NCBI RefSeq assembly: GCF_003605405.2
Contig: NZ_QYTW02000011.1
Coordinates: 62,001-126,000 of the forward strand
Direction of reading: 5' to 3'
Source of the DNA: Siminovitchia terrae
GTDB lineage: Bacteria > Bacillota > Bacilli > Bacillales > Bacillaceae_C
DNA: 64,000 nucleotides
Shown: piece by piece, positions 8,118 to 41,087 of the stretch
Position numbering within the stretch: the stretch's first letter is position 1
How the letters are laid out: the number at the start of each line of letters is the position of its first letter
The notes under the pieces: generated by a model
Databases searched by the model: none
The model's input: only the letters and a program-made list of their open reading frames with translations
What the model was told of the DNA's origin: nothing
Position numbers and translations under genes: made by a program

Positions 8118-8312
8118 ATCAAATGCGCCTTGGCGTATTTGCGCCAAGATTTTATTGAGCTCCGCTCGATAAATTTCCTCTGAAAATCTGTGGCATCCGC
8201 CGGAGGCTTTGACTTTATTCAGCCGGGGTTTGAACCCCCACTGAATGGAATACCGATATGCATTCATCTTACCACTTATAGAAGTGGGAGATTTCTGCTG
8301 AATGAAGTTAAA
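8118..8312 (+). repeat. 195-bp structured dispersed repeat, copy 1
   Basis: This copy runs from ATCAAATGCGCC to GAAGTTAAA. On paper it folds into a 5' hairpin (TTGGCG 8130-8135 with CGCCAA 8142-8147) and a 10-bp hairpin (8151-8160 with 8164-8173). A four-way junction follows, closed by ACTTTATTCAGC (8212-8223) with GCTGAATGAAGT (8297-8308). The junction encloses GGGGTTtgAACCCC (8225-8238), TGAATG/CATTCA (8242-8266) and CCACTT/AAGTGG (8272-8287). It is non-coding. Five more copies occur in this window. It lies 190 bp upstream of the symporter. Confidence 0.9.
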
Positions 8313-8501
8313 CGTTCATTGGACTCTTAAACGGACTGATCAACTCCAAGCCGACGGGTGAAATCGGCTGCCAAACATTTCAACGGGAAATTATAAACGT
8401 TTAAATTCCCAGGGTAGACATCGGCTCTCCAGCAGACTTGACGTCTTTGCCGATTTATTAAACTGGGATTTTCCCAATCAAACAAAAAGGGAGTAGATTA
8501 T
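8313..8501 (+). promoter_or_regulatory. Probable structured 5' leader of the symporter gene
   Basis: Between repeat copy 1 and the ATG there are three possible hairpins: AGCCGA/TCGGCT (about 8350-8370), a GGGAA/TTCCC stem around an AT-rich loop (8383-8409), and TGGG/CCCA just before the ribosome binding site (8464-8475). This could be an untranslated leader, but it matches no riboswitch class I know. Confidence 0.3.
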
Positions 8502-9983
8502 ATGCATACGACTATTTTAGTAGAATTCATCCTCTACTGTCTCGCCATGGTCGCCATTGGGTATTATTTCAGCAGGAAAGAGATGGAACACTCCGACTTC
8601 CTGATCGGCGGCGGCAAATTGCCTGGCTGGGCCCTCGCTTTTTCCGAAAGGGCCACAGGAGAATCCGCCTGGCTGCTCTTGGGTTATACAGGATTTGTCT
8701 TCATGACAGGATTCTCCGCCATCTGGGTGGGGGTCGGGATTGGATTGGGGGTTGCCTTCTCCTGGCTCTTCCTCGCCAGAAGGTTTATGGACGAGGCTAA
8801 GAAGTATAATGTTATGACACTTCCTGGATACCTTGCAGCAAGATTTGAATCAAAAGGAAAAATCATCCTTTGGCTAGCAACAATCTTAATTGGTAGCTTT
8901 ATGATGTTTTACTTCGGCGCCCAGATTGCTGGAGCTGGAAAGACATTGTTCACCGTCTTTGGGATTAAACCGCTGACCGGTATTCTCATCAGCTTTGCCA
9001 TCGTCATCGCACTTTCGTACCTTGGCGGATTTGTTGGTGTTGTCTGGACGGATATGATTCAGAGTGTCATGATGCTCATTACACTCGTCGGACTTCCCAT
9101 TATGGCTTTAATCAAAATCAACTCTGAAGGCCTATCAGTCATGGATGCCGTTGTAGCTGCAGGTCCGACAATGGACTCCTGGACCGGCGGGTTGACAGGA
9201 TTCGCTTTGGGTATTCTGCTCTTCAATAACTTCGCCTGGTTCTTCGGATTCTTGGGCGGACAGCCTCAGCTCAGCGCCCGATTCATGGCATTGAAGGACA
9301 AGAAAGAGGCAAGGACAGGGGCAACTGTCGCGGTAGTCTGGGTTATTTTAGCTTATGTAGGCGCCTTTCTCATCGGTTTGACTGCATTGACCCTTTACCA
9401 GGGACAGGCATTCGCTGATGTGGAAACGATTCTACCGTTCATGATACTCGACCTTTTCCCTGAGTGGGCAGCAGGCATCTTGCTTGCCGGTATACTGGCC
9501 GCCATCATTTCAACAGCGGACTCACAACTTCTAGTTATTACAAGCTCAGCAAGTGAGGACATTATCCGTAATGCCCTCAGCATCAAATTGACCGAAAAGC
9601 AACTTGTATTAGTATCAAGATTGACCATTGTTGGAGCCGGAATCGTCGGTCTGATGATCGCCCTTTTCTCCAAATCGCTCGTCTATCTCGTTGTCGGATG
9701 GGCATGGGCCGGAGTCGGATGTACATTGTCGCCTGCGATCATTCTTACGTTCTTCTGGAAAAAATATTCCGGAGCCGGAGTCATCGCAACAATTATTTCC
9801 GGATTTGTGTCAACAGTCGTGTGGATCTCCACGCCGCTTGAAGAAATCATCTCCTCCCGGTTCACAACATTCTTTATTGCTCTCGCGTTCGGTATTGTCT
9901 TCAGTCTATTATTCCCCGAGAAGCAGACAACAGCTGCCAAAGACGAAAAGGAAATATCTGCCGAAAATGCGATCAACGTCTAA
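8502..9983 (+). CDS. Sodium/solute symporter, PutP-like
   Basis: The product is a 493-aa membrane protein with about 13 transmembrane segments. It starts MHTTILVEFILYCLAMVAIG behind AAAGGGAG. ERATGESAWLLLGYTG corresponds to the conserved early region of PutP-type sodium/proline symporters (RASDMSGWLLMGLPG in typical members), and STADSQLLV fits the conserved sodium-binding helix 8 region. It is most like proline/amino-acid symporters of the SSS family. Neighbouring ornithine cyclodeaminase-like and amine oxidase genes support an amino acid or derivative as substrate. A hairpin terminator follows. Confidence 0.88.
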   Translation: MHTTILVEFILYCLAMVAIGYYFSRKEMEHSDFLIGGGKLPGWALAFSERATGESAWLLLGYTGFVFMTGFSAIWVGVGIGLGVAFSWLFLARRFMDEAKKYNVMTLPGYLAARFESKGKIILWLATILIGSFMMFYFGAQIAGAGKTLFTVFGIKPLTGILISFAIVIALSYLGGFVGVVWTDMIQSVMMLITLVGLPIMALIKINSEGLSVMDAVVAAGPTMDSWTGGLTGFALGILLFNNFAWFFGFLGGQPQLSARFMALKDKKEARTGATVAVVWVILAYVGAFLIGLTALTLYQGQAFADVETILPFMILDLFPEWAAGILLAGILAAIISTADSQLLVITSSASEDIIRNALSIKLTEKQLVLVSRLTIVGAGIVGLMIALFSKSLVYLVVGWAWAGVGCTLSPAIILTFFWKKYSGAGVIATIISGFVSTVVWISTPLEEIISSRFTTFFIALAFGIVFSLLFPEKQTTAAKDEKEISAENAINV

Positions 9984-9997
9984 CCTCGCAGCGAATA

Positions 9998-10028
9998 AGC
10001 GTCGGGTATTTCAACCCCGGCGCTTTTT
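9998..10028 (+). terminator. Rho-independent terminator after the symporter
   Basis: The GC-rich inverted repeat AGCGTCGGG / CCCCGGCGCT has one wobble and one bulge, closes a short loop, and is followed by TTTTT. It lies 15 bp after the stop codon. Confidence 0.75.
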
Positions 10029-10347
10029 GCTGCAGTGTTAGTCCGCAGGAGGGGGGCTTGAGGCGTCTCTTGGCAGATGTTCATGTTTTGGCATGCCCCC
10101 ATGGCGGTTATTTGAAACTCCTCTTTGCTGATGACCAAGATTCACAGGACTCAAGGCATCACCATGGGACCTCTTGCTTTAGATAAATACGATTTATACG
10201 TCTCATGACTATTTCATAAAATCGCTTTTTTCGGTGTTCACAATTTGCACGTTTGCTGAGCTTTGCCCCCTCCCCAAACTTCACTCACACAGAAAACCGC
10301 CCAGGCATCACTTTCCGTGAAGTTCTGGACGGTTCCTCTGTTTTTAT
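10029..10347. other. Intergenic region with a possible two-way terminator
   Basis: No gene is seen. A hairpin at 10295-10334 (AACCGcCCAG with CTGGaCGGTT, plus an inner ACTT/AAGT stem) has A-rich sequence on its left and CTCTGTTTTT on its right, so it could end transcription in both directions. Repeat copy 2 lies between it and the minus-strand gene ending at 10586. Confidence 0.45.
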
Positions 10348-10541
10348 ATCAAATGCGCCTTGCGTATTTGCGCCCAGATTTTATCGAGCTCCGCTCGATA
10401 AATTTCCTATAAAAATCTGTGGCATCCGCCGGAGGCTTTAACTTTATTCAGCCGGGGTTTGAACCCCCACTAAATGGAATACCAATAGGCATTCATCTCA
10501 CCACTTACAGAAGTGGGAGACTTCTGCTGAATGAAGTTAAA
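10348..10541 (+). repeat. 195-bp structured dispersed repeat, copy 2
   Basis: This 194-bp copy has the same ends as copy 1 (ATCAAATGCGCC to GAAGTTAAA). A one-base deletion in the first hairpin (CCTTGCG for CCTTGGCG) weakens that stem, while the perfect TTTATCGAGC/GCTCGATAAA hairpin and the four-way junction are kept. It lies 45 bp after the 3' end of the ornithine cyclodeaminase-like gene, pointing opposite to it. Confidence 0.9.
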
Positions 10542-10585
10542 ATTCATGAGGCCAAATCCCCGCTTGGAAGCTCCGGTATTTGTTA

Positions 10586-11599
10586 TCAAACCTCCATTTT
10601 CGATGAAAAAGGAGAAAGTGCATCCAATGAAATTTTTTGGCCAACCTGTTCCTTAAGTGCTTTTTCATAAAGGTATCTGGCAACGACCACATCAGCTACA
10701 GCCAGTCCGACCGATTTGAAAACCGTAGTCTCCCGTTCGTGCTCCCTCCCCGGTAGCTGACCACTGATGATATGTCCAAGCTCCCCATGGATGCTGTCTC
10801 TATGAAATTTTCCTTCATTGATTGGAATCAGCAGATCGCCTGCTTCTTCCAATGCTGAGTTGATTGATTCCACTACCACCTTGCCCGCATTTGCTATGAC
10901 ATGGCTAGGCAACTCCTGCATGGATGGGGTATAGGAGCCAATCGCATTGACATGGACACCAGGCTCAAGAGTTTCCGAAAAGACAGGCTTGCTAGAGCTT
11001 GTGGCCGTCACAATTATATCCGCTCCCCGTATCGCTTCATCGGAATCAGAATGGGTAGATATGGCCACTTCATGTCTCGATTGAATATATTCTGCAAGGA
11101 TTTCGGCCTTTTCCTGCGTCCGGTTATATAATTTCAGCTGGGTGATATCCCGTACTGCCTTGATTGCTTTGAATTGCCCGATCGCCTGCTCGCCAGTACC
11201 GAGAATAGCCAAAACTCCCGAATCGGCACGGGACAAATATTTGGATGCCACCCCTGAAAGCGCGCCTGTCCGCATAACCGTCAAATAAGAGCCCTCTAAC
11301 AGTGCAAGCGGCTCTCCCGTATCAGTATCTACCAACAACACCACTCCGTTGATAGATTTTTTCCCAAGAACGGCATTCCCGGGAAAATTACTAACATATT
11401 TCATTCCAAGACTTTTTAAACCCTCCGCGACAGAAGGCATGAATATGGCATTGCCTTCCTTTTTCTCCAACTGTAGGACAGTCCGAACCGGTGTTGTGGT
11501 CCCAGCAGCCGAATATTCTCTCAGCGACTCGCCTACAACTTCTACCATTTCGGACATATTCAGCAGCTTTTGCTGGTCCTCAGCATTAATGATCAGCAT
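10586..11599 (-). CDS. Ornithine cyclodeaminase / mu-crystallin family enzyme
   Basis: The product is 337 aa starting MLIINAEDQQKLLNMSEMVE, with AGGAGGG six bases before the ATG. GVLAILGTGEQAIGQFKAI is the Rossmann NAD(P)-binding motif (GTGEQA), and GMKYVSNFPGN and the R-T-G-A-x-S pattern (MRTGALSGVASKYL) are family signatures. Members convert ornithine to proline, reduce cyclic ketimines or oxidise alanine, so the exact reaction is open. Next to an amino-acid symporter, an SDR and an amine oxidase, a role in amino acid breakdown is likely. Confidence 0.9.
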   Translation of the reverse strand: MLIINAEDQQKLLNMSEMVEVVGESLREYSAAGTTTPVRTVLQLEKKEGNAIFMPSVAEGLKSLGMKYVSNFPGNAVLGKKSINGVVLLVDTDTGEPLALLEGSYLTVMRTGALSGVASKYLSRADSGVLAILGTGEQAIGQFKAIKAVRDITQLKLYNRTQEKAEILAEYIQSRHEVAISTHSDSDEAIRGADIIVTATSSSKPVFSETLEPGVHVNAIGSYTPSMQELPSHVIANAGKVVVESINSALEEAGDLLIPINEGKFHRDSIHGELGHIISGQLPGREHERETTVFKSVGLAVADVVVARYLYEKALKEQVGQKISLDALSPFSSKMEV

Positions 11600-12008
11600 G
11601 GATTACCCTCCTTCGCATCAGCAGTCATCGTTAACAGACTAGCAGTATTAGCTACATTACTTTTTACGACAACCGCTTGCCTATATTTCAGAAATAACTG
11701 ACTAATCTATCATTATAACGACTTAGAACGGAAATTCATATGGGCACAATCAACAAAAAAGGCGCTTGTAATTTATCTATTTTGCTAACTTTTTATTTCT
11801 TTCTTGCGGTTTAACAGCTCTCTCTTTAAAAAATCCACACTTTGCAGCCTCTCCAGCCGCCTCTTCTTAGGTATTTCTTAACAAATACTCAGGCTTTTCC
11901 ATGGCCCGCCATCTTATTTATGGAAAAGAATCTCATCCGCTCCCCTAAATACCGCCCACACCCTCACATAGACAACATCCTCCACTCTCCTACATTTAAA
12001 AAAAACGC
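11600..12008. other. Divergent intergenic region
   Basis: About 400 bp separate the divergent ornithine cyclodeaminase-like and SDR genes. No ORF with a plausible start is present. The right edge contains the SDR promoter, listed separately. The left edge must hold the promoter of the minus-strand gene, which I could not place. Confidence 0.4.
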
Positions 12009-12086
12009 TTGCAAAAGGTAGAAAATTTATAATATAATCACTTTAACGAATTCCGAAAAAAGGTCTATTTGGTCCGAATTTCGGAA
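12009..12086 (+). promoter_or_regulatory. Promoter and candidate operator of the SDR gene
   Basis: TTGCAA (12009-12014) and a perfect TATAAT (12033-12038) with an 18-bp spacer form a sigma-A promoter. Just downstream, TTCCGAAA (12051-12058) and TTTCGGAA (12079-12086) are perfect inverted repeats over the likely transcript start, and a third related phrase GTCCGAA lies at 12072. This is the geometry of a repressor operator; the regulator is unknown. Confidence 0.6.
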
Positions 12087-12107
12087 AAACAACTGGAGGG
12101 TTACAGA

Positions 12108-12893
12108 ATGAGATTACTAGATAAAGTGGCAATTATTACGGGCGGGAGCCAAGGAATTGGTGAAGGGATCGCCCGGACGTTCGGAAAGAATGGAGCAAAG
12201 GTTGTCATTGCCGATGTGAACGAAGAAGCAGGTAAACTGGTAATAGACCGGTTTATCGACGAAGAAATTGACTGTCTTTTCGTCAAAACGGATGTTAGCA
12301 GCGAAGAGGATGTAAAAAACTTGATCAGCACAGCAGCCGAACATTTTGGCGGGGTAGATCTCCTCGTCAATAATGCTGCGGTCAACATTCGGAAATCAGC
12401 TGTAGACACCTCTTTTGAAGAATGGAATAAAGTGATCGGAGTCAATTTGACAGGAGCTTTCCTTTGCTCAAAATATGCAATCCCTGAGATGGAAAAGCGC
12501 GGCGGCGGAGCCATTGTCAATATCGCTTCCTGGCATGCAGAGAAAACAATTACAAGACTAGCAGCCTATGCGGCATCAAAAGGAGGAATGACCGCCCTTA
12601 CAAGACAGATGTCCCTTGACTGCGGCCCACTGAATATCCGCGTAAACGCTGTATGCCCAAGTTCAGTGGACACCCCACTACTCCATCAAACATTCGCCAG
12701 CCTGGAGGATCCCGACGCAGCGTTTGAAGAAACGCTCAGATTTCAGCCAATGGGAAGAATCGGAACAGTAGACGATATTGCCAACGCCTGCCTGTTCATG
12801 TGTTCGGACGAAGCCTCTTATGTCAGCGGACAAACACTCATGGTAGATGGGGCAGCCGTCAACAAAATCGCACGCCCATTGATGTTTGACTAA
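12108..12893 (+). CDS. Short-chain dehydrogenase/reductase (SDR)
   Basis: The product is 261 aa from ATG 12108 (GGAGGG nine bases upstream), which begins MRLLDKVAIITGGSQGIGEG; a frame extension upstream is not conserved. TGGSQGIGEG is the NAD(P)-binding motif, VNNAAVNIR is the NNAG-type motif, and the catalytic residues appear as NIASW and YAASK. The C-terminal SGQTLMVDGA is typical of classical SDRs of the 3-oxoacyl-reductase type. The substrate is unknown. It is followed by an FAD amine oxidase and a broken etfB. Confidence 0.9.
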   Translation: MRLLDKVAIITGGSQGIGEGIARTFGKNGAKVVIADVNEEAGKLVIDRFIDEEIDCLFVKTDVSSEEDVKNLISTAAEHFGGVDLLVNNAAVNIRKSAVDTSFEEWNKVIGVNLTGAFLCSKYAIPEMEKRGGGAIVNIASWHAEKTITRLAAYAASKGGMTALTRQMSLDCGPLNIRVNAVCPSSVDTPLLHQTFASLEDPDAAFEETLRFQPMGRIGTVDDIANACLFMCSDEASYVSGQTLMVDGAAVNKIARPLMFD

Positions 12894-12960
12894 TTCCGAT
12901 CTTCCTTTTACCACTTCACCGTTGCATTTATGAAAATATGCCTTGCAAAGGATGGTTCAA

Positions 12961-14124
12961 ATGAATAAATATGATGTCATTATTGCTGGCGGAGGCATCA
13001 TGGCCTCCAGTCTGGCCTACAACCTGCGCAAAGACGGATTCACTGGAAGCATTGCGGTTTTTGAGAAAGATCAGATGTACGAATTCTCTTCCACTCCGCG
13101 GAGTGAGGGTGGTATCCGCCTTTCTTTCACAACGGAAATCAATATACAGATGAGCCGTTACAGTCTGGACTTTTACAAAAATTTTGCAAAAGAGATGGAA
13201 GTGAATGGCGAAACACCGCAGATCGATTTCAAGCAGAACGGGTATCTGTACCTCGGTACAAGCGAAACAATGCAGAGATTGATAGAGGAAGCCAACTTCC
13301 AAAACCAGTGCGGAGCCAACATGGAAGTCCTGTCCGTGGAAGAAATCCATCATATCGTTCCGGAACTGAATACGGAGGATCTGGCCGGAGCCACATTTGA
13401 TACAGATGCAGGATACATGGACCCGTATACAATCCTTCAGTTCTATGCGAAAAAAGCGAGATCCATGGAAGTGGATTATATCTACCAACCAGTCCAGTCA
13501 CTCCTTGCTGAAAACAGGAGAGTAACAGGTGTCCGACTTGAATCTGGAGAGGAGTATCATGCTCCGATCGTTGTCAATGCATGCGGCGCATGGTCAGGCG
13601 CACTGAGCGAGACAATCGAAGTCAACATTCCTGTTAAGCCGTTCCGCTATCAGATTTTCTGCCTGGATTTGACAAAGAAATTCTCTAAATCACTGCCGCT
13701 CGTTTTCGATCCGACCGGATTCTACTTCCGCGAAGAAGGAGAGAAGGTAATTACTGGTATGCCTCATAAAGATCCGTACAGCTTTGAATTCTCTTCGAAT
13801 AAGTCCACTTTCGAAGAGGAAGTATGGCCGATTTTCTATGAAAGAAGCCAGCTGTTCGAACAGCTGAAAGTGGAACGTAGCTGGGCTGGATTATATGATT
13901 TCAATACAGTAGACCAGAATGCGATTATCGGCGGACATCCGGAAATGAATGGCTATTACGTCATTACCGGCTTCAGCGGACATGGGTTCCAGCAAGCACC
14001 TGCAGCGGGAAAAGGGTTATCTGAACTGATCCGTCTTGGAAAATATGAAACAATGGATCTGTCTTCCCTCTCTGTTGAAAGATTTGCCAATAACCAGTTG
14101 ATACTTGAAACAGCCATTCATTAA
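12961..14124 (+). CDS. FAD-dependent amine/amino acid oxidoreductase (DAO family)
   Basis: The product is 387 aa from ATG 12961, which has AAAGGA at 8-nt spacing; an in-frame TTG at 12943 is less well placed. MNKYDVIIAGGGIMASSLAY is the FAD-binding dinucleotide motif, in the variant form GGGIMASS. The C-terminal GYYVITGFSGHGFQQAPAAG matches the DAO family second flavin contact and resembles sarcosine oxidase, glycine oxidase and dimethylglycine dehydrogenase relatives. It would oxidise a secondary amine or amino acid. A nearby etfB remnant hints that electrons once went to an electron-transfer flavoprotein. Confidence 0.88.
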   Translation: MNKYDVIIAGGGIMASSLAYNLRKDGFTGSIAVFEKDQMYEFSSTPRSEGGIRLSFTTEINIQMSRYSLDFYKNFAKEMEVNGETPQIDFKQNGYLYLGTSETMQRLIEEANFQNQCGANMEVLSVEEIHHIVPELNTEDLAGATFDTDAGYMDPYTILQFYAKKARSMEVDYIYQPVQSLLAENRRVTGVRLESGEEYHAPIVVNACGAWSGALSETIEVNIPVKPFRYQIFCLDLTKKFSKSLPLVFDPTGFYFREEGEKVITGMPHKDPYSFEFSSNKSTFEEEVWPIFYERSQLFEQLKVERSWAGLYDFNTVDQNAIIGGHPEMNGYYVITGFSGHGFQQAPAAGKGLSELIRLGKYETMDLSSLSVERFANNQLILETAIH

Positions 14125-14234
14125 TCACTTACCGGGCTTGCGGTACGCCAATATTTCCACAGCTGCCAAAACAGATTCTGTTTTTCCCAGGTTCGGCATG
14201 GATTTACTATAATCTGATTGCGCGGAGGTCTATA

Positions 14235-14527
14235 ATGGATTTTTGTATTATTGACGGACATTTGATTCGGAAGAAAACATCGTGATTGCAAATGACGCTA
14301 TCGACGACAGCAACGCCGAATTTATTATGAATCCTTACGATGAATATGCAGTGGAAGAGGCGGTCAGCCTTCGAGACATGCACGGCGGGGCAGTGACGGT
14401 CATCACCGCAGGCGATGAAGAAGCGGAAAAGCAGCTTCGCACCGCCCTTGCCATGGGGGCAGACAAAGCAGAAGTGATTCCGGTCCTTATTGAGGAATTA
14501 AAGAAAGAGCCGGCCTTAGCTGGCTGA
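14235..14527 (+). pseudogene. etfB: Truncated electron transfer flavoprotein beta subunit
   Basis: A GGAGG and ATG are preserved at 14224-14237, but the first frame stops after about 16 codons. The following frame reads TFDSEENIVIANDAIDD, then NPYDEYAVEEAVSLRDMHGG and EEAEKQLRTALAMGADKAE, which are clear EtfB sequence. Small deletions between 14237 and 14265 break the frame. The reading stops at 14527 after about 85 family residues, whereas EtfB is about 255 aa. The adenosine-phosphate-binding region is lost, so it is a dead gene. Confidence 0.8.
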
Positions 14528-14620
14528 CGGACGCAAATTGCGTAGAGTTGTTGTGGTGCCAAGAACCCGCGCAATTTAGACATAATTCAGGATTATACGG
14601 GTGCCTGGCACCTGCAGTAC

Positions 14621-14654
14621 AGCCCTTAAGAATACCGTGACGTTCTTAAGGGCT
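14621..14654. terminator. Strong stem-loop, probable terminator
   Basis: AGCCCTTAAGAA (14621-14632) pairs perfectly with TTCTTAAGGGCT (14643-14654) and is followed by TTCATATTTTT. Just upstream is the palindrome GGTGCCTGGCACC (about 14600-14612). It lies after the etfB remnant and probably ended that operon. Confidence 0.65.
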
Positions 14655-14782
14655 TCATATTTTTATATAATCTATTAGACTAGCTGCTACAAGGTGAACA
14701 TACTCCAAAATACTTTCAAAACGAACGTGCGGATCAACGTCGCAGAAATTTGGAAAAGGCTGTTTTTGAAGACAATAAATAA

Positions 14783-14928
14783 AAAGGATATTTTAATCGG
14801 GGGCGCTGGATAAATGAATTTATCCAGCGCCCCCGATTATTATTAGTTAATTACAAAGGGAATTCTCACTGCAAAGAATTTCCCTATAGAGTTAAGGGAA
14901 AGCTCACTTTCTTAGCAAAATATCCTTT
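14783..14928. mobile_element. MITE-like palindromic element (146 bp)
   Basis: Perfect 12-bp terminal inverted repeats bound the stretch: AAAGGATATTTT (14783-14794) and AAAATATCCTTT (14917-14928). Inside is a perfect 21-bp hairpin (14795-14815 with 14818-14838, two-base loop) and two weaker hairpins (about 14858-14884 and 14892-14915). It encodes nothing. The layout resembles a small non-autonomous element; no target duplication is evident, and no transposase with such ends is in the window. Confidence 0.45.
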
Positions 14929-14956
14929 CCACCTCTTAAATTAAGAAGATTTTTTT

Positions 14957-15151
14957 ATCAACTGCGCCTTGGCGTATTTGCGTCCAGATTTTACCGAGCT
15001 CCGCTCGATAAATTTCCTCTGAAAATCTGTGGCATCCGCCGGAGGCTTTGACTTTATTCAGCCGGGGTTTGAACCTTCACTGAATAGAATACCAATAGGC
15101 ATTCATCTCACCACTTATAGAAGTGGGAGATTTCTGCCTAATGAAGTTAAA
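14957..15151 (+). repeat. 195-bp structured dispersed repeat, copy 3
   Basis: This full-length copy has more substitutions than the others: ATCAACTGCGCC at the start, GTCCAG in the first hairpin, and CCTTCAC where others have CCCCCAC, which breaks the GGGGTT hairpin. The outer junction helix is kept apart from GCTGAA to CCTAAT. It lies 18 bp after the 3' end of the uvrA-like gene, pointing opposite to it. Confidence 0.88.
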
Positions 15152-15169
15152 TCATAATATATGTTACAG

Positions 15170-22845: not shown

Positions 22846-24752
<1,907 letters not shown>

Positions 24753-24761: not shown

Positions 24762-24952
24762 ATCAAATGCGCCTTGGCGTATTTGCGCCCAGATTTTATC
24801 GAGCTCCGCTCGATAAATATCCTCTGAAAATCTGTGACATCCGCCGAAGGCTTTAACTTTATTCAGCCGAGGTTTGAACCCCCACTGAATGAAATCCAAT
24901 ATGCATTCATCTCACCACTTACAGAAGAAGACTTCTGCTGAATGAAGTTAAA
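24762..24952 (+). repeat. 195-bp structured dispersed repeat, copy 4
   Basis: This 191-bp copy has the same ends as the others; small deletions affect the third junction hairpin (CAGAAGAAGACTT). It lies on the strand opposite to xpt, exactly between the riboswitch terminator (ends 24957) and the xpt ribosome binding site (about 24745), so it is transcribed as part of the xpt leader. Confidence 0.9.
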
Positions 24953-24956
24953 ATAC

Positions 24957-25145
24957 AAAAAACTCGCAGACAACGCCCCTCTTTAAATGCAGGGTAGCAA
25001 AGTCTTCGAGTTTAATTCTTAAAGAAATAGAAAAACAAGATTTCCACATAATCTTATTTTTCCAATCACTTGCCACCCATAGTCGATTTGTTTACGGCAA
25101 ACCGGTAGAAACTTACAGGCCCTATTCCTGCGATTATATGAGTGT
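24957..25145 (-). promoter_or_regulatory. Guanine-type purine riboswitch controlling xpt-pbuX
   Basis: The minus strand at 25145-25074 reads CACTCATATAATCGCAGG, then AAGTTTCTACCGG, CCGTAAA and TCGACTATGGGTG, the standard purine aptamer core. The base in GACTATG that contacts the ligand is C, as in guanine/hypoxanthine-sensing members (T in adenine types). A terminator follows at 25013-24957: AAACTCGAAGAC pairs with GTCTGCGAGTTT and a T-run. Ligand binding would end transcription before xpt. Confidence 0.92.
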
Positions 25146-25168
25146 GTCATATATTGTAGAATATTGTT

Positions 25169-30608: not shown

Positions 30609-30612
30609 GCTA

Positions 30613-31800: not shown

Positions 31801-31850
31801 GCACAACAAGTATAGTATTTCTCACCTTATATTTTTTTCTAACCAAAAAA

Positions 31851-31872: not shown

Positions 31873-31880
31873 CTTCATTC

Positions 31881-32845: not shown

Positions 32846-32868
32846 AATAAAGAAAGTAGGATTGCCTT

Positions 32869-33884: not shown

Positions 33885-33885
33885 T
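33859..33885 (-). terminator. Terminator of dgkB
   Basis: AGCAGCCG (33859-33866) pairs with CGGCTGCT (33878-33885). On the minus strand it is followed by TTTTTCG. The stem overlaps the last bases of the gene. Confidence 0.75.
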
Positions 33886-34796
33886 TAGACTTTATCTTCC
33901 GGACGAATATCATGAATAGGAACAAACACTTCCAAATGGCGGTATAAGTTGTAAAACTCTGCTGGAAGCAGCCCTCCGTATTCCCCGTCAATGTTCAATT
34001 GGACTTTTTCTTTCGATTTGACTTTTATATGATTCGCTTTTGAATAAATCACATTCGGATCATCTATATGTTCCCCTCTTAATGCGAGTGAAGCCACACG
34101 GATGAACTCCGCCAGATTAGTCTTTTTCAAGATCAGTAATGAGAAAAGGCCATCATTGATGGAGGCATCCGGTGCAAGTTTTTCGAAGCCCCCAACCGAG
34201 TTGGTCAGCGCAATAAGGAACAGCATGATTTCCCCTTCGAAAAGTTTGCCGTCGTATTCGATGGTTACATCCGTCGAGCGGATGGACGGCAGCATTTCAA
34301 TCCCTTTTAAATAATAGGCAAGCTGTCCCAGGACGGTTTTCATTTTCGCCGGTACTTCGTATGTAAGCTCGGTCAGCTTTCCGCCACCGGCAATATTGAT
34401 AAAATAATGATCATTCATTCGCCCGATATCCATCGGTATCGTATCACCCGCTGTGATAACATCGACAGCGGCATCAATATCCCGTGGAATATGCAAGGCT
34501 CGGGCAAAGTCGTTCGTCGTTCCTGTTGGAATAATGCCCAGCTTCGGACGGTATTCCTGCTCCGCCAGGCCATTAACCACTTCATTGATCGTTCCATCGC
34601 CGCCTGAACAGATGACGACATCATATTTTCTTTCCACAGCCGTACGAGCGGCAGCTGTCGCATCACCAGCACCCGTTGTAGCATGGCATGATGCTTCATA
34701 TCCTGCTTTCTCTAGCTTTTGTAAAACATCAGCAATACGCCGCTTAAAGATTTCACGGCCGGCTGTCGGGTTATAGATAATACGTGCTCTTTTCAA
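33885..34796 (-). CDS. dgkB: Diacylglycerol kinase
   Basis: The product is 303 aa starting MKRARIIYNPTAGREIFKRR. The nucleotide-binding motif VVICSGGDGTINEVVNGL and GIIPTGTTNDFARAL are signatures of the DagK/lipid kinase family. The Asp network GGDGT is intact. It phosphorylates diacylglycerol released during lipoteichoic acid synthesis, returning it to phospholipid. In B. subtilis dgkB lies between gatB and rlmCD; here about 14 kb of extra genes separate it from gatB. Confidence 0.92.
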   Translation of the reverse strand: MKRARIIYNPTAGREIFKRRIADVLQKLEKAGYEASCHATTGAGDATAAARTAVERKYDVVICSGGDGTINEVVNGLAEQEYRPKLGIIPTGTTNDFARALHIPRDIDAAVDVITAGDTIPMDIGRMNDHYFINIAGGGKLTELTYEVPAKMKTVLGQLAYYLKGIEMLPSIRSTDVTIEYDGKLFEGEIMLFLIALTNSVGGFEKLAPDASINDGLFSLLILKKTNLAEFIRVASLALRGEHIDDPNVIYSKANHIKVKSKEKVQLNIDGEYGGLLPAEFYNLYRHLEVFVPIHDIRPEDKV

Positions 34797-34877
34797 TTCA
34801 CATCATCCTTCGAACTCTATATACCGAAGCGTTGATCTAGATGCTTCCACTAAATAATCATACCTTTTTATCACTTT

Positions 34878-35768
34878 TTAGTCTACCTCTACCATATTAG
34901 CATGATTAATCGTGATAGTATTTGTCCCTTTTCCGAAAGAGATGTGTCCAGATTTTATGCCCTCTGCATTTATATCTTTGATATTTTTCCATTCGCCTTC
35001 CAGTTCATATACTTTGTTCGCTTCAATCTTCATATCCGCCTTTTCGCCCGACTCGATTTTTACCCAGCCTGAGGTATTAATCTCCCAATCATTTTTCAAT
35101 CCCCTAGGTTTAAACGTTAGGTTTCTCTCACTCCCTTTGAACTCAACCTCCTTGTCTGCAGGTATGAGCAAAGTTGCGTCTGCATCACTGTAATGATCTA
35201 TAAACCTCTGACGAGGTAATTCCTTCAGTTTAATAAAAAGCGTATCTCCTTTTTTCTCTGCCAGCACATACTCCGAAGCGTTTTTGATCAATTTTTCACC
35301 ATTGATGGCCTCGTCTTGATAGGTTCCAAATAAAGAAACAGCCTTTTCCTCAGTACTTTCAACGGTTAGAGGAAAGGTTCCCGTATCAACGACAATCCGA
35401 TCAATTCCATTTAATGAGGCTTCTTCATACTTCGGAAGATCGGCAGTCTGGACTTCAGCTCTCACCACATTACCTGCCAATTCCAAAAGGCCGCTCGCAC
35501 TCAGCATCGCCATTGCCAGCCCGCAGGTTCCAAGGGCTGCTATGAAAATAATGCTGATAAAATCATATTGTATTGCTACCTTCTCTTTTTGGGAGCGGGC
35601 CAAGTACACAATAATCTCAACACCAAGAACAATGAAAATGAACGGCCACCAAGAAAGAAGGGCTACCGCCGGGTCCCCCCATTTGAAAACCTGTGACAGC
35701 AACAGGAAGATGCCGAGCAATAAAAGGGCCGCCCCCATTGAAAAAGAACCGACTCTCCATGTTCTCAT
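34878..35768 (-). CDS. Membrane-anchored protein with C-terminal beta-rich extracytoplasmic domain
   Basis: The product is 296 aa. The N-terminal 95 residues hold three to four hydrophobic segments, including GAALLLLGIFLLLSQVF and WWPFIFIVLGVEIIVYLAR, as in LiaF-TM/DUF5668-type proteins. The rest is hydrophilic and beta-rich (IDRIVVDTGTFPLTVEST, DATLLIPADKEVEF), resembling adhesin-like DUF4097 folds. The ATG overlaps the stop of the preceding gene by four bases. It is the last gene of the ECF sigma operon and probably acts in envelope stress sensing or response. Confidence 0.7.
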   Translation of the reverse strand: MRTWRVGSFSMGAALLLLGIFLLLSQVFKWGDPAVALLSWWPFIFIVLGVEIIVYLARSQKEKVAIQYDFISIIFIAALGTCGLAMAMLSASGLLELAGNVVRAEVQTADLPKYEEASLNGIDRIVVDTGTFPLTVESTEEKAVSLFGTYQDEAINGEKLIKNASEYVLAEKKGDTLFIKLKELPRQRFIDHYSDADATLLIPADKEVEFKGSERNLTFKPRGLKNDWEINTSGWVKIESGEKADMKIEANKVYELEGEWKNIKDINAEGIKSGHISFGKGTNTITINHANMVEVD

Positions 35769-36847
35769 TTTGATTCACCTTCCCTGCTATACTTTGTTTT
35801 TCTACCTGACAAAAGCTTGATGCCCCCGCCTATTAGGATAAGGCAGATGATTGCAGGCTTAACATATGACTGAATCCAGAAATAAAGATTGATACCATAT
35901 TTTTCGTCCAAGATCGGATCTATCATCGGAAAGATGACACTCGCTCCGATATAATACAAACCCAATACGATCAGCCCGATGCCAAGCCATTTTTGATGAT
36001 TGACTAAATAAGACACAATCGGTTCATCCTCCACTTCCCCGCTTTCATATTGCGAGGCTTTCTGCAGTCCGTCAAAAAAGCTGTAAAACCAAATGATCGG
36101 GACGATGAAGAGAAAAATCCCCAGCCTCAGCACATCGAGAATATAGATGGCGAACAAGAACGCCGCCATTAACTGGATCCCGCGTTTTTGAAGACCAAGG
36201 TACAAATGCCCTGCGCCAGGCACGATTGAAAGCAATGTAGCAATTGACTTGCTCTTTCTGCCATCAGGCCGTTTGCTTTCCAGTTCTTCAAGTACTGACC
36301 GGTCTTGCAAAACTTCCCCTTTTGACTTGCGGTCCAGCAGCTGCATGACATCGAAAAATCCGTAGATCCAAATAATTGGCAACGAAGCTAAGAAAATGAG
36401 AAACTCCGACTGTCCTGTCATCATGGTGACAAAAAGAATCATAACACCAAGCCCCAAAAACACAGCTAGCAACGTGATTCCCCGATAGACAAGGCCTAAC
36501 TGAAAGTGCCCAAGCCCCGGAACAAAGGATAGAACAATAGTGAAAAAGCGTTCAGAATCTGGATTTTTTTCAATTACTGCTCCTTCATCCATCGGCTCAG
36601 TGCGATTATACAGCTTCGAAGCTGTCACCACTGTATCAATAAAGTTGACGATATACATGAGTAGCCCGCCTAGAGCAAAGACAAGAAAAAACTGAGAACC
36701 TGTGACAGCTACAGCTACTACCGCCAAAGCAGGTATGCCAAAAACAACCGCTGTATAGAATAACCCTCGCAATACTTTTCCAAGATACATCAATCCTCCG
36801 CCGGGAAAAAAGGCGAGAAGAAAAGCTATGATAGGATTTTTATTCAT
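35765..36847 (-). CDS. Multi-pass membrane protein with three internal repeats
   Basis: The product is 360 aa from ATG 36847, with GGGAGGG eight bases before; the frame extends further upstream without a ribosome binding site. A motif recurs three times: AFFPGGGLMYLGKVLRG, SFVPGLGHFQLGLVYRG and SIVPGAGHLYLGLQKRG (P-G-x-G-x-x-x-L-G). Each is followed by two hydrophobic segments, so the protein is a threefold tandem of a TM2-like unit. The start overlaps the anti-sigma stop. Its function is unknown; it is translationally coupled within the sigma operon. Confidence 0.7.
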   Translation of the reverse strand: MNKNPIIAFLLAFFPGGGLMYLGKVLRGLFYTAVVFGIPALAVVAVAVTGSQFFLVFALGGLLMYIVNFIDTVVTASKLYNRTEPMDEGAVIEKNPDSERFFTIVLSFVPGLGHFQLGLVYRGITLLAVFLGLGVMILFVTMMTGQSEFLIFLASLPIIWIYGFFDVMQLLDRKSKGEVLQDRSVLEELESKRPDGRKSKSIATLLSIVPGAGHLYLGLQKRGIQLMAAFLFAIYILDVLRLGIFLFIVPIIWFYSFFDGLQKASQYESGEVEDEPIVSYLVNHQKWLGIGLIVLGLYYIGASVIFPMIDPILDEKYGINLYFWIQSYVKPAIICLILIGGGIKLLSGRKTKYSREGESK

Positions 36848-37307
36848 GCTTGTTTCCCTCCCTAAGATTGTCATCAATTTTTTCTGTAATGGACTCTGTT
36901 TTATTTAACCAGTCATTTATAACTGACTGTTCTTGTTCAGCAGCTGTATTTTCGAAAGTGCTGATAGTCGACGTCAATTGTGAGAAGATACCTGTTGACA
37001 TAAGAACAAGTGTCATTGCTGCAGCTATCGTGTAATGGACCAAAGTCTGCCTTCGCAAGTTTTTCCTCGGCTTCACTTTGTTCTGCGTTTTTTCTTGTAC
37101 ACAGCCAATTTCTTTCATGATGGAATCTGTAAATCCTGTCGGATTAGTCAGCACCGGCATCTGTGATTCAGCTTCTTCTACAGCTTTCAAGTAAAGCTCC
37201 AAACAGTGATCACAGCTGTAAAGATGGTTTTCATATTGAGAGCGAGTTTCTTCATTAAGAGAATCAGTCGCATATAACATCCATTTTTCATAATTGATAT
37301 GGTTCAT
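36840..37307 (-). CDS. Anti-sigma factor with zinc-finger (zf-HC2-like)
   Basis: The product is 155 aa. The N-terminal ENHLYSCDHCLELYL gives the H-x3-C-x2-C zinc-binding core of anti-sigma ZAS domains. One transmembrane segment follows (TIAAAMTLVLMSTGIFS, about residues 92-110), then an extracytoplasmic tail. It would hold the cognate ECF sigma factor at the membrane. The ATG overlaps the sigma factor stop by four bases, as usual for such pairs. Confidence 0.85.
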   Translation of the reverse strand: MNHINYEKWMLYATDSLNEETRSQYENHLYSCDHCLELYLKAVEEAESQMPVLTNPTGFTDSIMKEIGCVQEKTQNKVKPRKNLRRQTLVHYTIAAAMTLVLMSTGIFSQLTSTISTFENTAAEQEQSVINDWLNKTESITEKIDDNLREGNKHE

Positions 37308-37846
37308 GAAAAATCATCCTCCTTCCAGTGCTTCTTCATCCATTGTCTTGCCCGATAGAGCCTCACTTCGACCGTCTTCACTTTCACATCCAGCTCTTGT
37401 GCCAATTCCTCGTAGGTTTGCTCCTTTATGTAGAATCCTTCGACGACCCCTCTGTAATTTTCCGGAAGTTCGTCAAGCCGCTTCCTTAGAAGGTTTTGCC
37501 GCTCCCTTTTCAAAACAAGGAATTCGACACTTTCGCCGGGCGGCGCATGACTCGTCTCTTCATACTCAACATTCATCTCTTCCTGCCGTCGAACCTTTTT
37601 TCTCTTTATATCAATGGCATGATTAACTGCAATTCTTGTGATCCATGTTTTAAAACCTTGCTTCTCATATTGGGGGAGAGAAGTATAGATTTTCATGAAC
37701 ACTTCCTGCGCAGCGTCCTCGGCATCTTTTTCATTGCGCAGGACACCGTACACTGAGTGAAAAATGTAATTGCGGTATTTCTCCACAATCAATCGGAATG
37801 CATGGTCATTTCCGCTCTTGATTTTTTCAATGAGCACATCATCCAA
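37304..37846 (-). CDS. ECF-type RNA polymerase sigma factor
   Basis: The product is 180 aa from TTG 37846, with GGGGGGAG at 7-nt spacing; an in-frame ATG at 37867 lies within the ribosome binding site region and is less likely. Region 2 reads VYGVLRNEKDAEDAAQEVFM with KTWITRIAVNHAIDIKR, and region 4 reads LPENYRGVVEGFYIKEQTYE with VKTVEVRLYRARQWMKK. It directs transcription under envelope stress and is expected to activate its own operon (sigma, anti-sigma, two membrane proteins). Confidence 0.9.
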   Translation of the reverse strand: MDDVLIEKIKSGNDHAFRLIVEKYRNYIFHSVYGVLRNEKDAEDAAQEVFMKIYTSLPQYEKQGFKTWITRIAVNHAIDIKRKKVRRQEEMNVEYEETSHAPPGESVEFLVLKRERQNLLRKRLDELPENYRGVVEGFYIKEQTYEELAQELDVKVKTVEVRLYRARQWMKKHWKEDDFS

Positions 37847-37879
37847 AACTTCTCTCCCCCCTTTCATGCGTCACCCTTA

Positions 37880-37915
37880 TAGACGCCGGCTGGTGGTATG
37901 GTCACTACACTATTT
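37880..37915 (-). promoter_or_regulatory. Candidate autoregulated ECF promoter
   Basis: On the minus strand GTGACC is followed after 14 bp by CGTCTATAAG, about 25-30 bp before the gene. The CGTC element is typical of ECF -10 regions, but the spacing is shorter than the usual 16-17 bp, so this is tentative. Confidence 0.25.
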
Positions 37916-38091
37916 ATAAAATTTTTTTTGAGAACGTCCTATTTTGATCCGAGTTCGTGGATTTGATCATAATACCCATGTATTTTCAGGTCAAAATCTA
38001 TATTTCAATTAGAACTCAACCCTCCTATTTTACCATTTAAGGAAACTTTTCATAGTGCAAGCCGTAGAGATAAAGAAGGAAATCAGTGGGA

Positions 38092-38286
38092 TTTAACTTC
38101 ATTCAGCAGAAGTTTCCCACTTCTGTAAGTGGTAATATGAATGCATATTGGTATTCCATTCAGCGGGGTTCAAACCCCGGGCTGAATAAAGTCAAAGCCT
38201 CCGACGGATGCCACAGATTTTCAGAGGAAATTTATCGAGCGGAGCTCGATAAAATCTGGGCGTAAACACGCCAAGGCGCATTTGAT
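38092..38286 (-). repeat. 195-bp structured dispersed repeat, copy 5
   Basis: This full-length copy is in the opposite orientation to the other five: it begins with TTTAACTTC and ends with GCGCATTTGAT on the plus strand. All hairpins of the four-way junction are intact, including GGGGTTtgAACCCC. It lies in the spacer between the ECF operon and the MFS gene. Flanking parts 37916-38091 and 38287-38508 show no gene. Confidence 0.9.
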
Positions 38287-38508
38287 TCGTCTTAAAAAAT
38301 AAAGGAAGTTGATTTGAGAGTCCTTGAGGTTTTAAAAAATAGAATGAAAAAGATGGAGAGAAGGAGTTTCAAGTCTGGTTCAACAGCCTGAATTAGTGTC
38401 TCCTAGAGCGTTACAAGATAATAGAAAGTCGCCCAGTTTAAAAAAGAGTACGGCTTGTCTCGGCAGGATCAGACGAAAGATTTACAATTTTTCAGTGAAA
38501 AATCAAGA

Positions 38509-38558
38509 AAGTCCCAGTTGGTCATCAGATAGCGATTATCTGAAACCAATAGGGACTT
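38509..38558 (-). terminator. Terminator of the MFS transporter gene
   Basis: AAGTCCC (38509-38515) pairs with GGGACTT (38552-38558), extended by TTGGT/ACCAA and CAGATA/TATCTG inside. On the minus strand it is followed by TCTTGATTTTTC. Confidence 0.65.
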
Positions 38559-38572
38559 GTTGGATTAAAAAA

Positions 38573-39862
38573 TTAAGCCGCTTTTCTGGATTTTCTTTTA
38601 CTTCGTGACCAGATGACAACCGGAACCAGCAGCAGGGACAAGAGCCCGCCTGCAAGTGATAATACAGCATAACTAAAATAGGCCGCAATGATGCCGGATA
38701 ACGCTCCGCCAGCAGCTCCTGCAAGAGCGATGAAGACGTCGATGGCACCTTGGGTTTTTGCCCGGGTAGACAGATTAGTTGAATCGACTATGAGAGCTGT
38801 CCCGCTGATCAATCCAAAATTCCAGCCAAGTCCAAGCAAAGCGAGTGCGATGATAAGCATTAGCATCGATTCGCCAGACGTCAATCCAGATACCAAACCT
38901 GCTGCCAACAAGGTGGCACCTGCTGCGGCAGCCATGGTCATTCGCCCGATTTTATCCACCAGTATCCCTGTAACAAGTGATGGCAGGTACATGGCACCGA
39001 TATGGATTCCAATCACAATCCCTACATCTCTCAATCCGTGGCCGTGATGTTCCATATGTACCGGAGTCATCGTCATGATAGCAACCATAACGATTTGAGT
39101 AAGGATCATCACTGTAGCTCCGATGACAATTCCGCGCCTGTCGGATGTAACTTCCTCTTTATTGAAAGAATGCGTTTCTTTCTTGGCCGACGCATCCGCT
39201 ATCGCTTTTGCAACTACTAGAGGATCAGGACGAAGCATAGTAATTAGAACAAGCCCAGCAAGCAGATACGCTGCCGCAGCCAATATGAAGGGCCCTGCCA
39301 AAGGAGGAATGCCGATTCCCTCCGCGAACCTGCCCATCACACCTACAAGATTAGGGCCCGCTACTGCACCAAATGTGGTTGAAACCATCGCGATACTGAC
39401 AGCAGTAGCTCTTTGGGTCGCATTAGCCATATCCGTCCCAGCGTAGCGTGCCTGAAGATTGGTGGCCGTTCCTGCTCCATAGATAAACAATGAAACAAAA
39501 AGCAGGAAAACATTATTCATAACTGCGGCAGCCACTACTCCAATTGCACCAATGCCTCCCGTTATGAATCCTGCTCCCAGTCCGAAACGCCGGCCAAATC
39601 TCTGAGAGAGCCGTCCCACAATCAGGGCTGCCGCAGCAGAACCAAGTGTGAACAATGCAACAGGAACTCCTGCAAAACTGTCTGTTCCCAGCATATCGCG
39701 TGCAATCAGCGCTCCCACCGTTATACCGGCAGCAAGTCCTGCACCACCAAAAATCTGGGAAAGCATGACAATTACGAGAGTCCGCTTATAAAGCTCCTGC
39801 TGCTTTGACGGGGACTTCATATACTTTTGCAGCCAAGCTGGCTGATCATTTTTTTCAGACAT
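38573..39862 (-). CDS. Major facilitator superfamily transporter
   Basis: The product is 429 aa with 12 predicted membrane helices, starting MSEKNDQPAWLQKYMKSPSK (a cytoplasmic tail), with AAAGGCGG before the ATG. The loop between helices 2 and 3 reads GRLSQRFGRRFGLGAGF, the MFS motif A, and a second copy, GILVDKIGRMTMA, occurs in the C-terminal half. Substrate unknown; drug or metabolite export is typical. It is a single gene with its own terminator, divergent from two small membrane proteins. Confidence 0.85.
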   Translation of the reverse strand: MSEKNDQPAWLQKYMKSPSKQQELYKRTLVIVMLSQIFGGAGLAAGITVGALIARDMLGTDSFAGVPVALFTLGSAAAALIVGRLSQRFGRRFGLGAGFITGGIGAIGVVAAAVMNNVFLLFVSLFIYGAGTATNLQARYAGTDMANATQRATAVSIAMVSTTFGAVAGPNLVGVMGRFAEGIGIPPLAGPFILAAAAYLLAGLVLITMLRPDPLVVAKAIADASAKKETHSFNKEEVTSDRRGIVIGATVMILTQIVMVAIMTMTPVHMEHHGHGLRDVGIVIGIHIGAMYLPSLVTGILVDKIGRMTMAAAAGATLLAAGLVSGLTSGESMLMLIIALALLGLGWNFGLISGTALIVDSTNLSTRAKTQGAIDVFIALAGAAGGALSGIIAAYFSYAVLSLAGGLLSLLLVPVVIWSRSKRKSRKAA

Positions 39863-39957
39863 TCAACTACCGCCTTTCAAAGTCATCATGTCAATAAATT
39901 GTATTATATAAGATCAAAAATTATTTTATTTAAGATTTATAGAAAGGAGAAATATAT

Positions 39958-40398
39958 ATGGGTTATTATAACATTGCCATAGTTCTTCAAATTTTACTAT
40001 TTTTTTATTTTGAAGTGACAACTTTGCTCAACCTTTTTCCCTGGAATGATCTATCAAAATATATCCGTAAGGAGACATTCACGGAAGCCATCACCAATGG
40101 TTTATTCATCCTTCTTTGTATCGGACTGTTTGCAACAAAAATCAAATGGCTCATGGCTATTTCGGTTATTTTTTACCTTGTCTTCCTTGTAATGCAGATT
40201 CTTACCTGGTGGATGCCCTATTGTACCGGGATTCATTTAAAGCAGTTTCCCAAATCTCTTTACGAATCCCATTTCAAAGACACAATCAAATGGCTGCCAC
40301 CTATAAAAGACCATATCATTCCCGACGCCCAGCACAATGTACTTCAGCTCCTATCTATGATTACGCTAATTGTAAGCTCTATTTCCCTATTTATGTAA
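39958..40398 (+). CDS. Hypothetical four-helix membrane protein
   Basis: The product is 146 aa with AAAGGAG eight bases before the ATG. Hydrophobic segments lie at about residues 3-22, 44-60, 63-82 and 124-144. A conserved-looking loop WWMPYCTGIHLKQFPKSLYE lies between the third and fourth. I do not recognise a named family. It is followed 17 bp later by a small two-helix protein and a shared terminator, so the two form a unit. Confidence 0.65.
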   Translation: MGYYNIAIVLQILLFFYFEVTTLLNLFPWNDLSKYIRKETFTEAITNGLFILLCIGLFATKIKWLMAISVIFYLVFLVMQILTWWMPYCTGIHLKQFPKSLYESHFKDTIKWLPPIKDHIIPDAQHNVLQLLSMITLIVSSISLFM

Positions 40399-40415
40399 AA
40401 AAGGAGTTGCTCGAA

Positions 40416-40574
40416 ATGAAAATAAAAAATCATGTAATCGGCTTTTCTTTAGGCTATTTCGCATGCATGCTAATCATCTACTTAGTCACAGGTTATTTTT
40501 CCTGGAGTTTTGTGCTTGGTTCTTTGGCAGGCATCGTCCTATTTGCAGTATTAATGAAATTATTGAAAAAATGA
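40416..40574 (+). CDS. Small two-helix membrane protein
   Basis: The product is 52 aa starting MKIKNHVIGFSLGYFACMLI, with AAGGAG nine bases before the ATG. Two hydrophobic segments (residues 6-24 and 30-48) end in a basic KLLKK tail. No family recognised. It is co-transcribed with the preceding membrane protein and followed by a terminator. Confidence 0.6.
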   Translation: MKIKNHVIGFSLGYFACMLIIYLVTGYFSWSFVLGSLAGIVLFAVLMKLLKK

Positions 40575-40579
40575 GAGTG

Positions 40580-40614
40580 TACGGCTGCTCCACATAAAGG
40601 AACAGCCGTTTATT
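40580..40614 (+). terminator. Terminator of the two-gene membrane protein unit
   Basis: ACGGCTG (40580-40586) pairs with CAGCCGT (40602-40608), with an inner TCC/GGA, followed by TTATTTTT. It lies just after the stop at 40574. Confidence 0.75.
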
Positions 40615-40627
40615 TTTCTAGCCCCTG

Positions 40628-41087
40628 CTATATTCTACCTACTTCAATTTTCGCCAGGTTAGATTCCTCAATTTGATCCACCTCCATGTGGACTTGATCA
40701 CCATATCAAATGCGCCTTGGCGTATTTGCGCCCAGATTTTATCGAGCTCCGCTCGATAAATTTCCTCTGAAAATCTGTGGCATCCGCCGGAGGTTTTGAC
40801 TTTATTCAGCCGGGGTTTGAACCCCCACTGAATGGAATACCAATACGCATTCATCTCACCACTTACAGAAGTGGGAGATTTCTGCTGAATGAAGTTAAAA
40901 TGGAAGTTTCATATTCCCCGTTCTCAAGGTCATCACCCTCAACCTAGTGAAATCCTCATTGTTTCTAATAAGATAGTCGGTAAAGTGCAGCCCCTCCGAA
41001 CATTTATGCATAAAAACGACAATTATATTTTCAAAGTTCTCCTCCACCATTAACTCTTCTCTATTTTGTTCAAAAAACCTTTATATC
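40628..41087 (-). pseudogene. ORF split by repeat copy 6
   Basis: On the minus strand a frame runs from about 41087: FENIIVVFMHKCSEGLHFTD, then [15 protein letters not shown]. It is stopped at once by the TTTAAC end of repeat copy 6 (40705-40899). Beyond the repeat a frame reads [20 protein letters not shown] and ends VGRI at a TAG (40628). Joining 40900 directly to 40704 gives CCATATGG and an uninterrupted frame (KLPYGDQV). No ATG with a good ribosome binding site is seen upstream, so the gene may also have lost its 5' end. Family not recognised. Confidence 0.65.
40705..40899 (+). repeat. 195-bp structured dispersed repeat, copy 6
   Basis: This is a full-length copy with intact hairpins, running from ATCAAATGCGCC to GAAGTTAAA. 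It lies within a minus-strand ORF whose frame is restored by precise removal of these 195 bp, leaving CCAT joined to ATGG. No target duplication is visible. Confidence 0.92.

Follow-up and report, generated by a model that had tools for sequence, protein, structure and literature searches.

The window analysed here, a 64,000-nucleotide stretch of the Siminovitchia terrae genome (positions 62001-126000 of contig 3, NZ_QYTW02000011.1; the 5.30-Mb source genome is designated G000), contains six copies of a short, gene-less repeat with an elaborate predicted fold. These copies raise the question of how a sequence that encodes nothing has spread, and a preliminary description offered two answers: a non-autonomous element mobilised by a TnpA, or a structured RNA family. 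Based on the boundaries of the repeat, its target, its orientation relative to replication and the compensatory changes in its helices, we consider it likely to be a non-autonomous single-stranded-DNA transposon, i.e., a miniature inverted-repeat transposable element (MITE) working like members of IS200/IS605. The evidence supports this mode of movement well, but not the descent of the repeat from a particular IS200/IS605 element.

Boundaries and target site

The six copies were recovered where they had first been described, each 191-195 bp long, with nhmmer scores of 216.6-242.2 bits in the 64-kb window; that search otherwise returned just self-similar matches on the reverse strand, none above 15.7 bits. 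The common ends also hold as described, except that one copy begins ATCAACTG. The last five letters, TTAAA, had been counted as part of the element; the unfilled sites identify them as target DNA. Since these sites place the boundaries, the mobile unit is about 190 bp and reads ATCAAATG...GAATGAAG.

Copy 4 is the clearest case. It is absent at the same place in the congeners G001, G002 and G005: the unfilled G001 site reads ...GAT TTAAA ATAC..., and those of G005 and G002 differ from it by a base or two outside TTAAA, while G000 and G003 carry the copy directly before that TTAAA. Because the unfilled relatives carry TTAAA alone, this pentamer pre-existed, and nothing was duplicated or lost upon insertion. 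Altogether, 20 comparisons of filled with unfilled sites were printed, 13 of which, representing six distinct places, were clean, with a zero gap and with TTAAA present at the unfilled site. These correspond to copy 4 (six rows, from G000 and G003), one G005 copy compared with G000, two G000 copies within another repeat family compared with unfilled paralogues (four rows), one G000 copy compared with a 75/88% paralogue and one row in locus L028, a head-to-tail pair whose second unit re-used one TTAAA and which is not a true unfilled site. Target-site duplication was absent, as in IS200/IS605-type elements, with the 13 clean comparisons standing beside seven that were not. Among 166 distinct full copies taken with their flanks, the target word was TTAAA in 146, TTAAT in nine and TGAAA in three, and eight other words occurred once each; the flanks beyond the pentamer are AT-rich with no fixed word. 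Read on the complementary strand, insertion thus occurs 3′ of a fixed pentanucleotide, TTTAA, at the left end. At two G000 loci (L106:795 and L114:11908), the element has landed in a different palindromic repeat family, which bears TTAAATCTTAAT on one side.

The same junctions bear on two other kinds of transposon. Self-matches make plain the 16-bp inverted ends TTTAACTTYATTCAGC of the 3′ part, which could define a 105-bp unit moved as an ordinary DDE-transposase MITE. Nevertheless, the mobile unit begins 90 bp further 5′, no target duplication exists and one of the inverted ends includes target DNA; the unfilled sites refute this candidate, and its probability is practically negligible. Alternatively, a rolling-circle (Y2) element whose origin end abuts TTAAA would account for a target that adjoins one end only, for the hairpin near that end and for the lack of duplication, a one-ended arrangement that we take to be like that of IS91 and Helitron elements. 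Given that eight of ten element-bearing genomes, G000 included, yielded no Y2_Tnp match, we consider this origin very improbable.

Replication polarity and conserved fold

The orientation of the repeat follows replication. Taking as the leading strand the strand with positive local GC skew, and genes from a mechanical choice of open reading frames, we found 97 of 102 copies or pieces in 41 stretches of G000 antiparallel to the leading strand (binomial p 3e-23). This proportion was 8/8 between two lagging-strand genes, where the element runs along the genes, and 41/45 between two leading-strand genes, where it runs against them; it was 32/32 in convergent or divergent gaps, 10/11 at stretch edges and 6/6 inside open reading frames of at least 120 amino acids. 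Copy 5 of the window is one of the five exceptions. Since the polarity holds in every gene arrangement, neither transcription nor the flanking genes set the orientation. In other genomes (matches of at least 40 bits and at least 120 model positions, in loci of about 1-8 kb), 117 of 135 cases agreed, as did 104 of the 115 in which the skew exceeds 0.05; some of the exceptions may be noise.

Reverse-transcribed elements can also display replication bias, and a relative of group II introns that primes on lagging-strand DNA could produce the same polarity. RVT_1 matches were present in 8 of 12 genomes; however, G005 and G032 have copies and no RVT_1 match, and intron-like ends were not seen, with no tool beyond Rfam applied. 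The probability of such an origin is minimal.

From the antiparallel bias it follows that the complement of the printed strand, with TTTAA 5′ of its left end, lies on the lagging-strand template. The lagging-strand template is also the insertion rule given for IS608 and ISDra2 in passages of PMC6006769, and general rules of such transposition appear in parts of PMC7290912. Taken together, insertion at TTAAA without duplication, the polarity and the fold form the signature of IS200/IS605-type transposition into the lagging-strand template. In the mechanism that we propose, the complement would be the active strand, and an HUH-type enzyme supplied in trans would bind hairpins near both of its ends. 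Excision of a strand of about 190 nt from the lagging-strand template would probably yield a circle, which would be inserted into another lagging-strand template directly 3′ of TTTAA. An internal TTTRA, found in 119 of the 128 readable copies (of 166), may help to choose the target by pairing with it.

Folded as RNA, the repeat reached -77.6 kcal/mol (z -7.7), and none of 200 shuffled sequences was as good; the complement gave z -5.1 as RNA and, with five extra bases, z -7.0 as DNA. The 12-bp closing helix of the preliminary description grows to 16 bp once the target is included. Covariation was assessed in alignment A4, which holds 37 copies from 23 genomes and omits, of 56 matches, duplicates as well as those that were most divergent or of odd length (L040/L066, L041, L063, L067, L068, L077, L078, L178-L181, L186 and the second match in L169). 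In this alignment, 87.1% of the cells were paired versus 82.9 in shuffled and 34-49 in slid versions, the covariation score was 0.162 versus 0.101 and 0.051-0.081, respectively, 32 of 64 pairs had two-sided changes versus 18.8 after shuffling, and 91 cells had a two-sided change versus 36-62 in slid versions. None of 500 shuffles attained any of the five observed measures. The preliminary description had made its proposal depend on covariation in the helices, and compensatory changes do occur across the 37 copies.

The best-supported parts are the terminal hairpin CAAATGCGC/GCGTATTTG, in which one pair changed from A-T to T-A in eight sequences, the helix CAGATTTT/AAAATCTG with its enclosed hairpin, where one pair is T-A in 20 copies and A-T in ten, and the closing helix, one pair of which is U-A in 18, U-G in ten and C-G in three. 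Support is weaker for the inner arms (54.7-88.3% paired), and no compensatory change was seen in A4 for the small hairpin at columns 83-92. In several single copies, an alternative fold closes the 5′ domain by pairing GCCUUGGCG with CGCCGGAGGC; the terminal hairpin, with which this closed domain competes, is the form scored in A4 and carries compensatory changes. The active strand has hairpins close to each end; when the complement is folded as DNA, the minimum-energy structure contains the left-end hairpin, with the right-end arm paired elsewhere. The structure computed with RNAalifold on alignment A3 was poor (24 pairs, covariation term 0.11), and the covariance model built from it, R1, was used purely as a finder.

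A very stable fold with compensatory changes is also what a structured regulatory or catalytic RNA family would present, its fold being selected as RNA and its route of spread left unspecified. Against this stand the orientation, which tracks replication and not the flanking genes, and the mismatches, since G-T and A-C types are about equally frequent (256 to 270 within the family and 110 to 113 between lineages) and do not favour the printed strand. Additionally, a scan of the window with Rfam at gathering scores returned only a T-box and a purine riboswitch, leaving the element unmatched. As the explanation of the repeat, we consider the RNA family first suggested quite improbable, and it is compatible with single-strand transposition. 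As the mismatch types single out no strand, the element may require its fold in single-stranded DNA, in RNA or in both.

Features of the element in the window; lengths are given for the mobile units, and the structural features refer to copy 6
Feature	Position	Strand	Basis or remark
Copy 1, mobile unit, 190 bp	8118..8307	+	nhmmer; right boundary deduced from other copies' unfilled sites
Copy 1, target TTAAA	8308..8312	+	
Copy 2, mobile unit, 189 bp	10348..10536	+	nhmmer
Copy 2, target TTAAA	10537..10541	+	
Copy 3, mobile unit, 190 bp	14957..15146	+	nhmmer
Copy 3, target TTAAA	15147..15151	+	
Copy 4, mobile unit, 186 bp	24762..24947	+	unfilled in G001, G002, G005; filled in G003
Copy 4, target TTAAA	24948..24952	+	present in unfilled sites
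Copy 5, mobile unit	38097..38286	-	sole window copy running with the leading strand
Copy 5, target TTAAA	38092..38096	-	
Copy 6, mobile unit, 190 bp, reference copy	40705..40894	+	nhmmer
Copy 6, target TTAAA	40895..40899	+	
Terminal hairpin CAAATGCGC/GCGTATTTG, right end if the complement is active	40707..40728	+	fold; 4/9 pairs with two-sided changes
Helix CAGATTTT/AAAATCTG around hairpin 40741-40757	40733..40777	+	5/8 and 6/7 pairs with two-sided changes
Cloverleaf: 16-bp closing helix (last five pairs = target) round three hairpins	40795..40899	+	7/16 closing pairs with two-sided changes
Internal TTTRA opposite the target, possible guide	40795..40799	+	
Subterminal hairpin TCTC-CCACTT/AAGTGG-GAGA with a bulged base, left-end hairpin	40854..40878	+	folds, covariation

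Copy 4 lies between a purine riboswitch (25060-25161, minus strand) and the downstream phosphoribosyltransferase-type gene, which encodes a Pribosyltran domain (24147-24752, minus strand); within this region (24762-25161), the copy is probably inside the leader of that gene.

Distribution and the search for an enzyme

Profile searches detected 102 copies or pieces in 864 kb of G000 (40 stretches of 20 kb plus the window). The scaled figure of about 626, i.e., some 600 copies per genome, is an estimate only, because the stretches were partly picked on contigs known to hold copies; by arithmetic from this estimate, the element makes up about 2% of G000. With R1 at E <= 0.001, 15 of 34 genomes of the family, G000 included, had matches: at least 74 in each of G000, G001 and G003 (a separate search of G000 listed at least 41 matches from the 40 scored among 598 candidates), 42 in G030, 29 in G032, 17 in G005, six in both G024 and G028, three in G022 and one or two in the other six, among them a single weak match in G004. 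G002 had none at this threshold. Across the order, the repeat was found in 19 of 299 sampled genomes and 10 of 117 genera (E <= 1e-5, stricter filters). A pattern scan of named genomes gave at least 69 stretches with matches, and among the matches listed are Psychrobacillus, Ureibacillus acetophenoni, Sporosarcina limicola, Filibacter tadaridae, Siminovitchia fordii, Niallia endozanthoxylica, Cytobacillus depressus, Schinkia azotoformans and Bacillus sp. HF117_J1_D. Plasmids and phages gave no match by blastn, and viral contigs none to one 19-base exact pattern. In the open-access literature we recognised no paper describing the family, although a text search cannot find a sequence. G156 has 46 matches, pieces included, the best full ones being 93-96% like the query copy, and G276 has 60, mostly pieces. 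Many matches in G276 are limited to about the first 100 bases at the 5′ end or to the remainder, which suggests that the 5′ domain has been combined with other 3′ parts.

Y1_Tnp matches were present in 9 of the 12 genomes first searched (not in G002, G004 and G030) and in 10 of 12 further ones (not in G156 and G276). The Y1 genes of G000 comprise an IS200-type TnpA (L124), two that are broken or partial and one on contig 13 (L140) resembling those of RAYTs, the REP-associated tyrosine transposases. The loci of the IS200 TnpA, of TnpB and of the other Y1 genes were examined for ends like those of the element; complete copies lie near some of them, and none of these copies encloses a gene. The order and content of locus L240 in G254 do not fit a parent of the element; there, a decayed Y1 gene lies 0.1 kb from a shortened element. 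This version of about 125 bp (L240:1959-2083) has its cloverleaf reduced to one hairpin, TTTAATTTTATTCAGC/GCTGAATAAAATTAA, with a two-sided C-G to T-A change, and ends on TTAAT. Y2_Tnp and RVT_1 were dismissed as partners, since neither tracks the element. Regarding the TnpA-mobilised element first suggested, the mode of movement is borne out by the target, the polarity, the subterminal hairpins and the unfilled sites, whereas the agency of TnpA is not demonstrated.

The resident RAYT-like protein might itself be the enzyme, in which case the element would be a large REPIN-like unit. Within the genus, the gene tracks copy number, being present in the copy-rich G000, G001 and G003, while G002 (no matches) and G004 (one) have no Y1 match and G005 has only damaged or partial ones. 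Across the order, RAYT relatives occur in 16 of 19 element genomes versus 162 of 280 others (p 0.03), a weak association. Nevertheless, they are widespread (178 of 299 genomes), G040, G156 and G276 carry elements but are missing from the genomes with a RAYT relative, and L140 scores 70.9 bits with NF047646, under the NCBIfam cut-off of 80. No GTAG foot was seen, and no systematic search was made for one. The gene has the same neighbours in G000 and G001 (L140:1306-1872 and L139:1456-2013) and, by flank match, in G003 (L136). In six RAYT-like loci, no element ends directly flank the gene, and the nearest copy lies about 0.8-1 kb away in L139 (G001) and L136 (G003). On balance, we regard RAYT agency as unlikely. 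A further possibility, also rather unlikely in our judgement, is an element that has no dedicated Y1 partner, that relies for movement on an unrecognised single-strand enzyme or on any passing HUH enzyme and that is equipped with its own target selector, i.e., TTTRA pairing with TTAAA at the end of the long helix, unlike the short guides of IS608.

Several observations weigh against an IS200/IS605-like transposon. Seven of the 20 site comparisons lack a clean TTAAA junction; three have a gap of zero with TATTT, TAAAA or GAAAA, and four have a shifted junction. Two of the shifted rows concern an orthologous site, G001 and G003 versus G000 (89-95% alike), where a later change has to be assumed because the unfilled side reads differently at the junction. 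No autonomous copy was found: the seven split copies detected by scanning L084-L386 are interrupted by 56-72 bases, too few for a gene in every case, and no tnpA/tnpB-bearing element with the same ends occurs among the Y1 and TnpB loci examined. G156 and G276, as well as G030 with its 42 divergent matches, lack a Y1_Tnp match; for G156 and G276, where RAYT-like relatives are also missing, loss after spreading, a gap in the draft assembly or another enzyme could be responsible. Short guides of the IS608 type 5′ of each hairpin were not identified, only the target-facing TTTRA, and G032 carries TTTCA at this internal position, a pentamer whose pairing with TTAAA is poorer. Since the structure derives from a row of A4 itself, the pairing percentages lean towards it, and the 32 pairs with two-sided changes are not far above the slid versions (21-30), a count that alone says little. 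The mismatch types favour neither strand. Finally, in a portion of PMC7290912, 22 IS605 copies of one species are reported without strand preference.

Comparison with known systems

The family is best viewed as a gene-less single-strand element of unusual abundance, which has extra conserved helices and lacks a known partner. Its hundreds of copies constitute a natural archive of single-strand insertion, recording fork polarity and target choice in one genome. They also provide a small multi-helix substrate for asking how base-pairing target choice is encoded, and they suggest a concrete mechanism that could be examined in bcr1 and other orphan Bacillus repeats.

With IS200/IS605 members such as IS608 and ISDra2, the element shares insertion 3′ of a tetra- or pentanucleotide beside the left end, the lack of duplication, the subterminal hairpins and the lagging-strand template. 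It differs from them in having hundreds of copies and several further conserved helices, and in that its target, TTTAA, lies opposite a complementary pentamer within the element where the long helix ends; moreover, the loci searched revealed no tnpA/tnpB relative sharing these ends. PATEs are gene-less derivatives of the IS200/IS605 family. A PATE-like element is mentioned in a section of PMC7290912.

REPIN/RAYT systems are likewise short, palindromic, mostly intergenic and of high copy number, and a Y1-type enzyme is plausible in both cases; however, our element is 190 bp long, its target is TTAAA, the presence of RAYT genes fits only in part, and no GTAG tag was seen, although none was systematically searched for. 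The CGTC-tagged REPs described in parts of PMC3733652 are also palindromic repeats without a dedicated transposase, but their sequence is different; some copies of our element contain a repeat that looks similar to them by eye. In composite copies, a second two-hairpin repeat of about 56-72 bases (AGGCCCACAGGACGTGGG...GCCACAGGATGTGGC... in most) replaces or fills the second 5′ hairpin (L313:964-1216, L297:4415-4666, L324:3575-3827, L186:1501-1750, L310:1890-2139 and L295:5624-5858). Since three copies in one genome share this second repeat, the composite itself seems to have spread.

Also comparable are the bcr1-bcr18 repeats of Bacillus cereus, which, according to the portion of PMC6542083 consulted, are 100-400 bp long, reach up to 130 copies in the case of bcr1 and carry a mobility-linked TTTAT motif. 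The likeness to bcr1 is one of description, and replication bias and target were measured here for the new family only.

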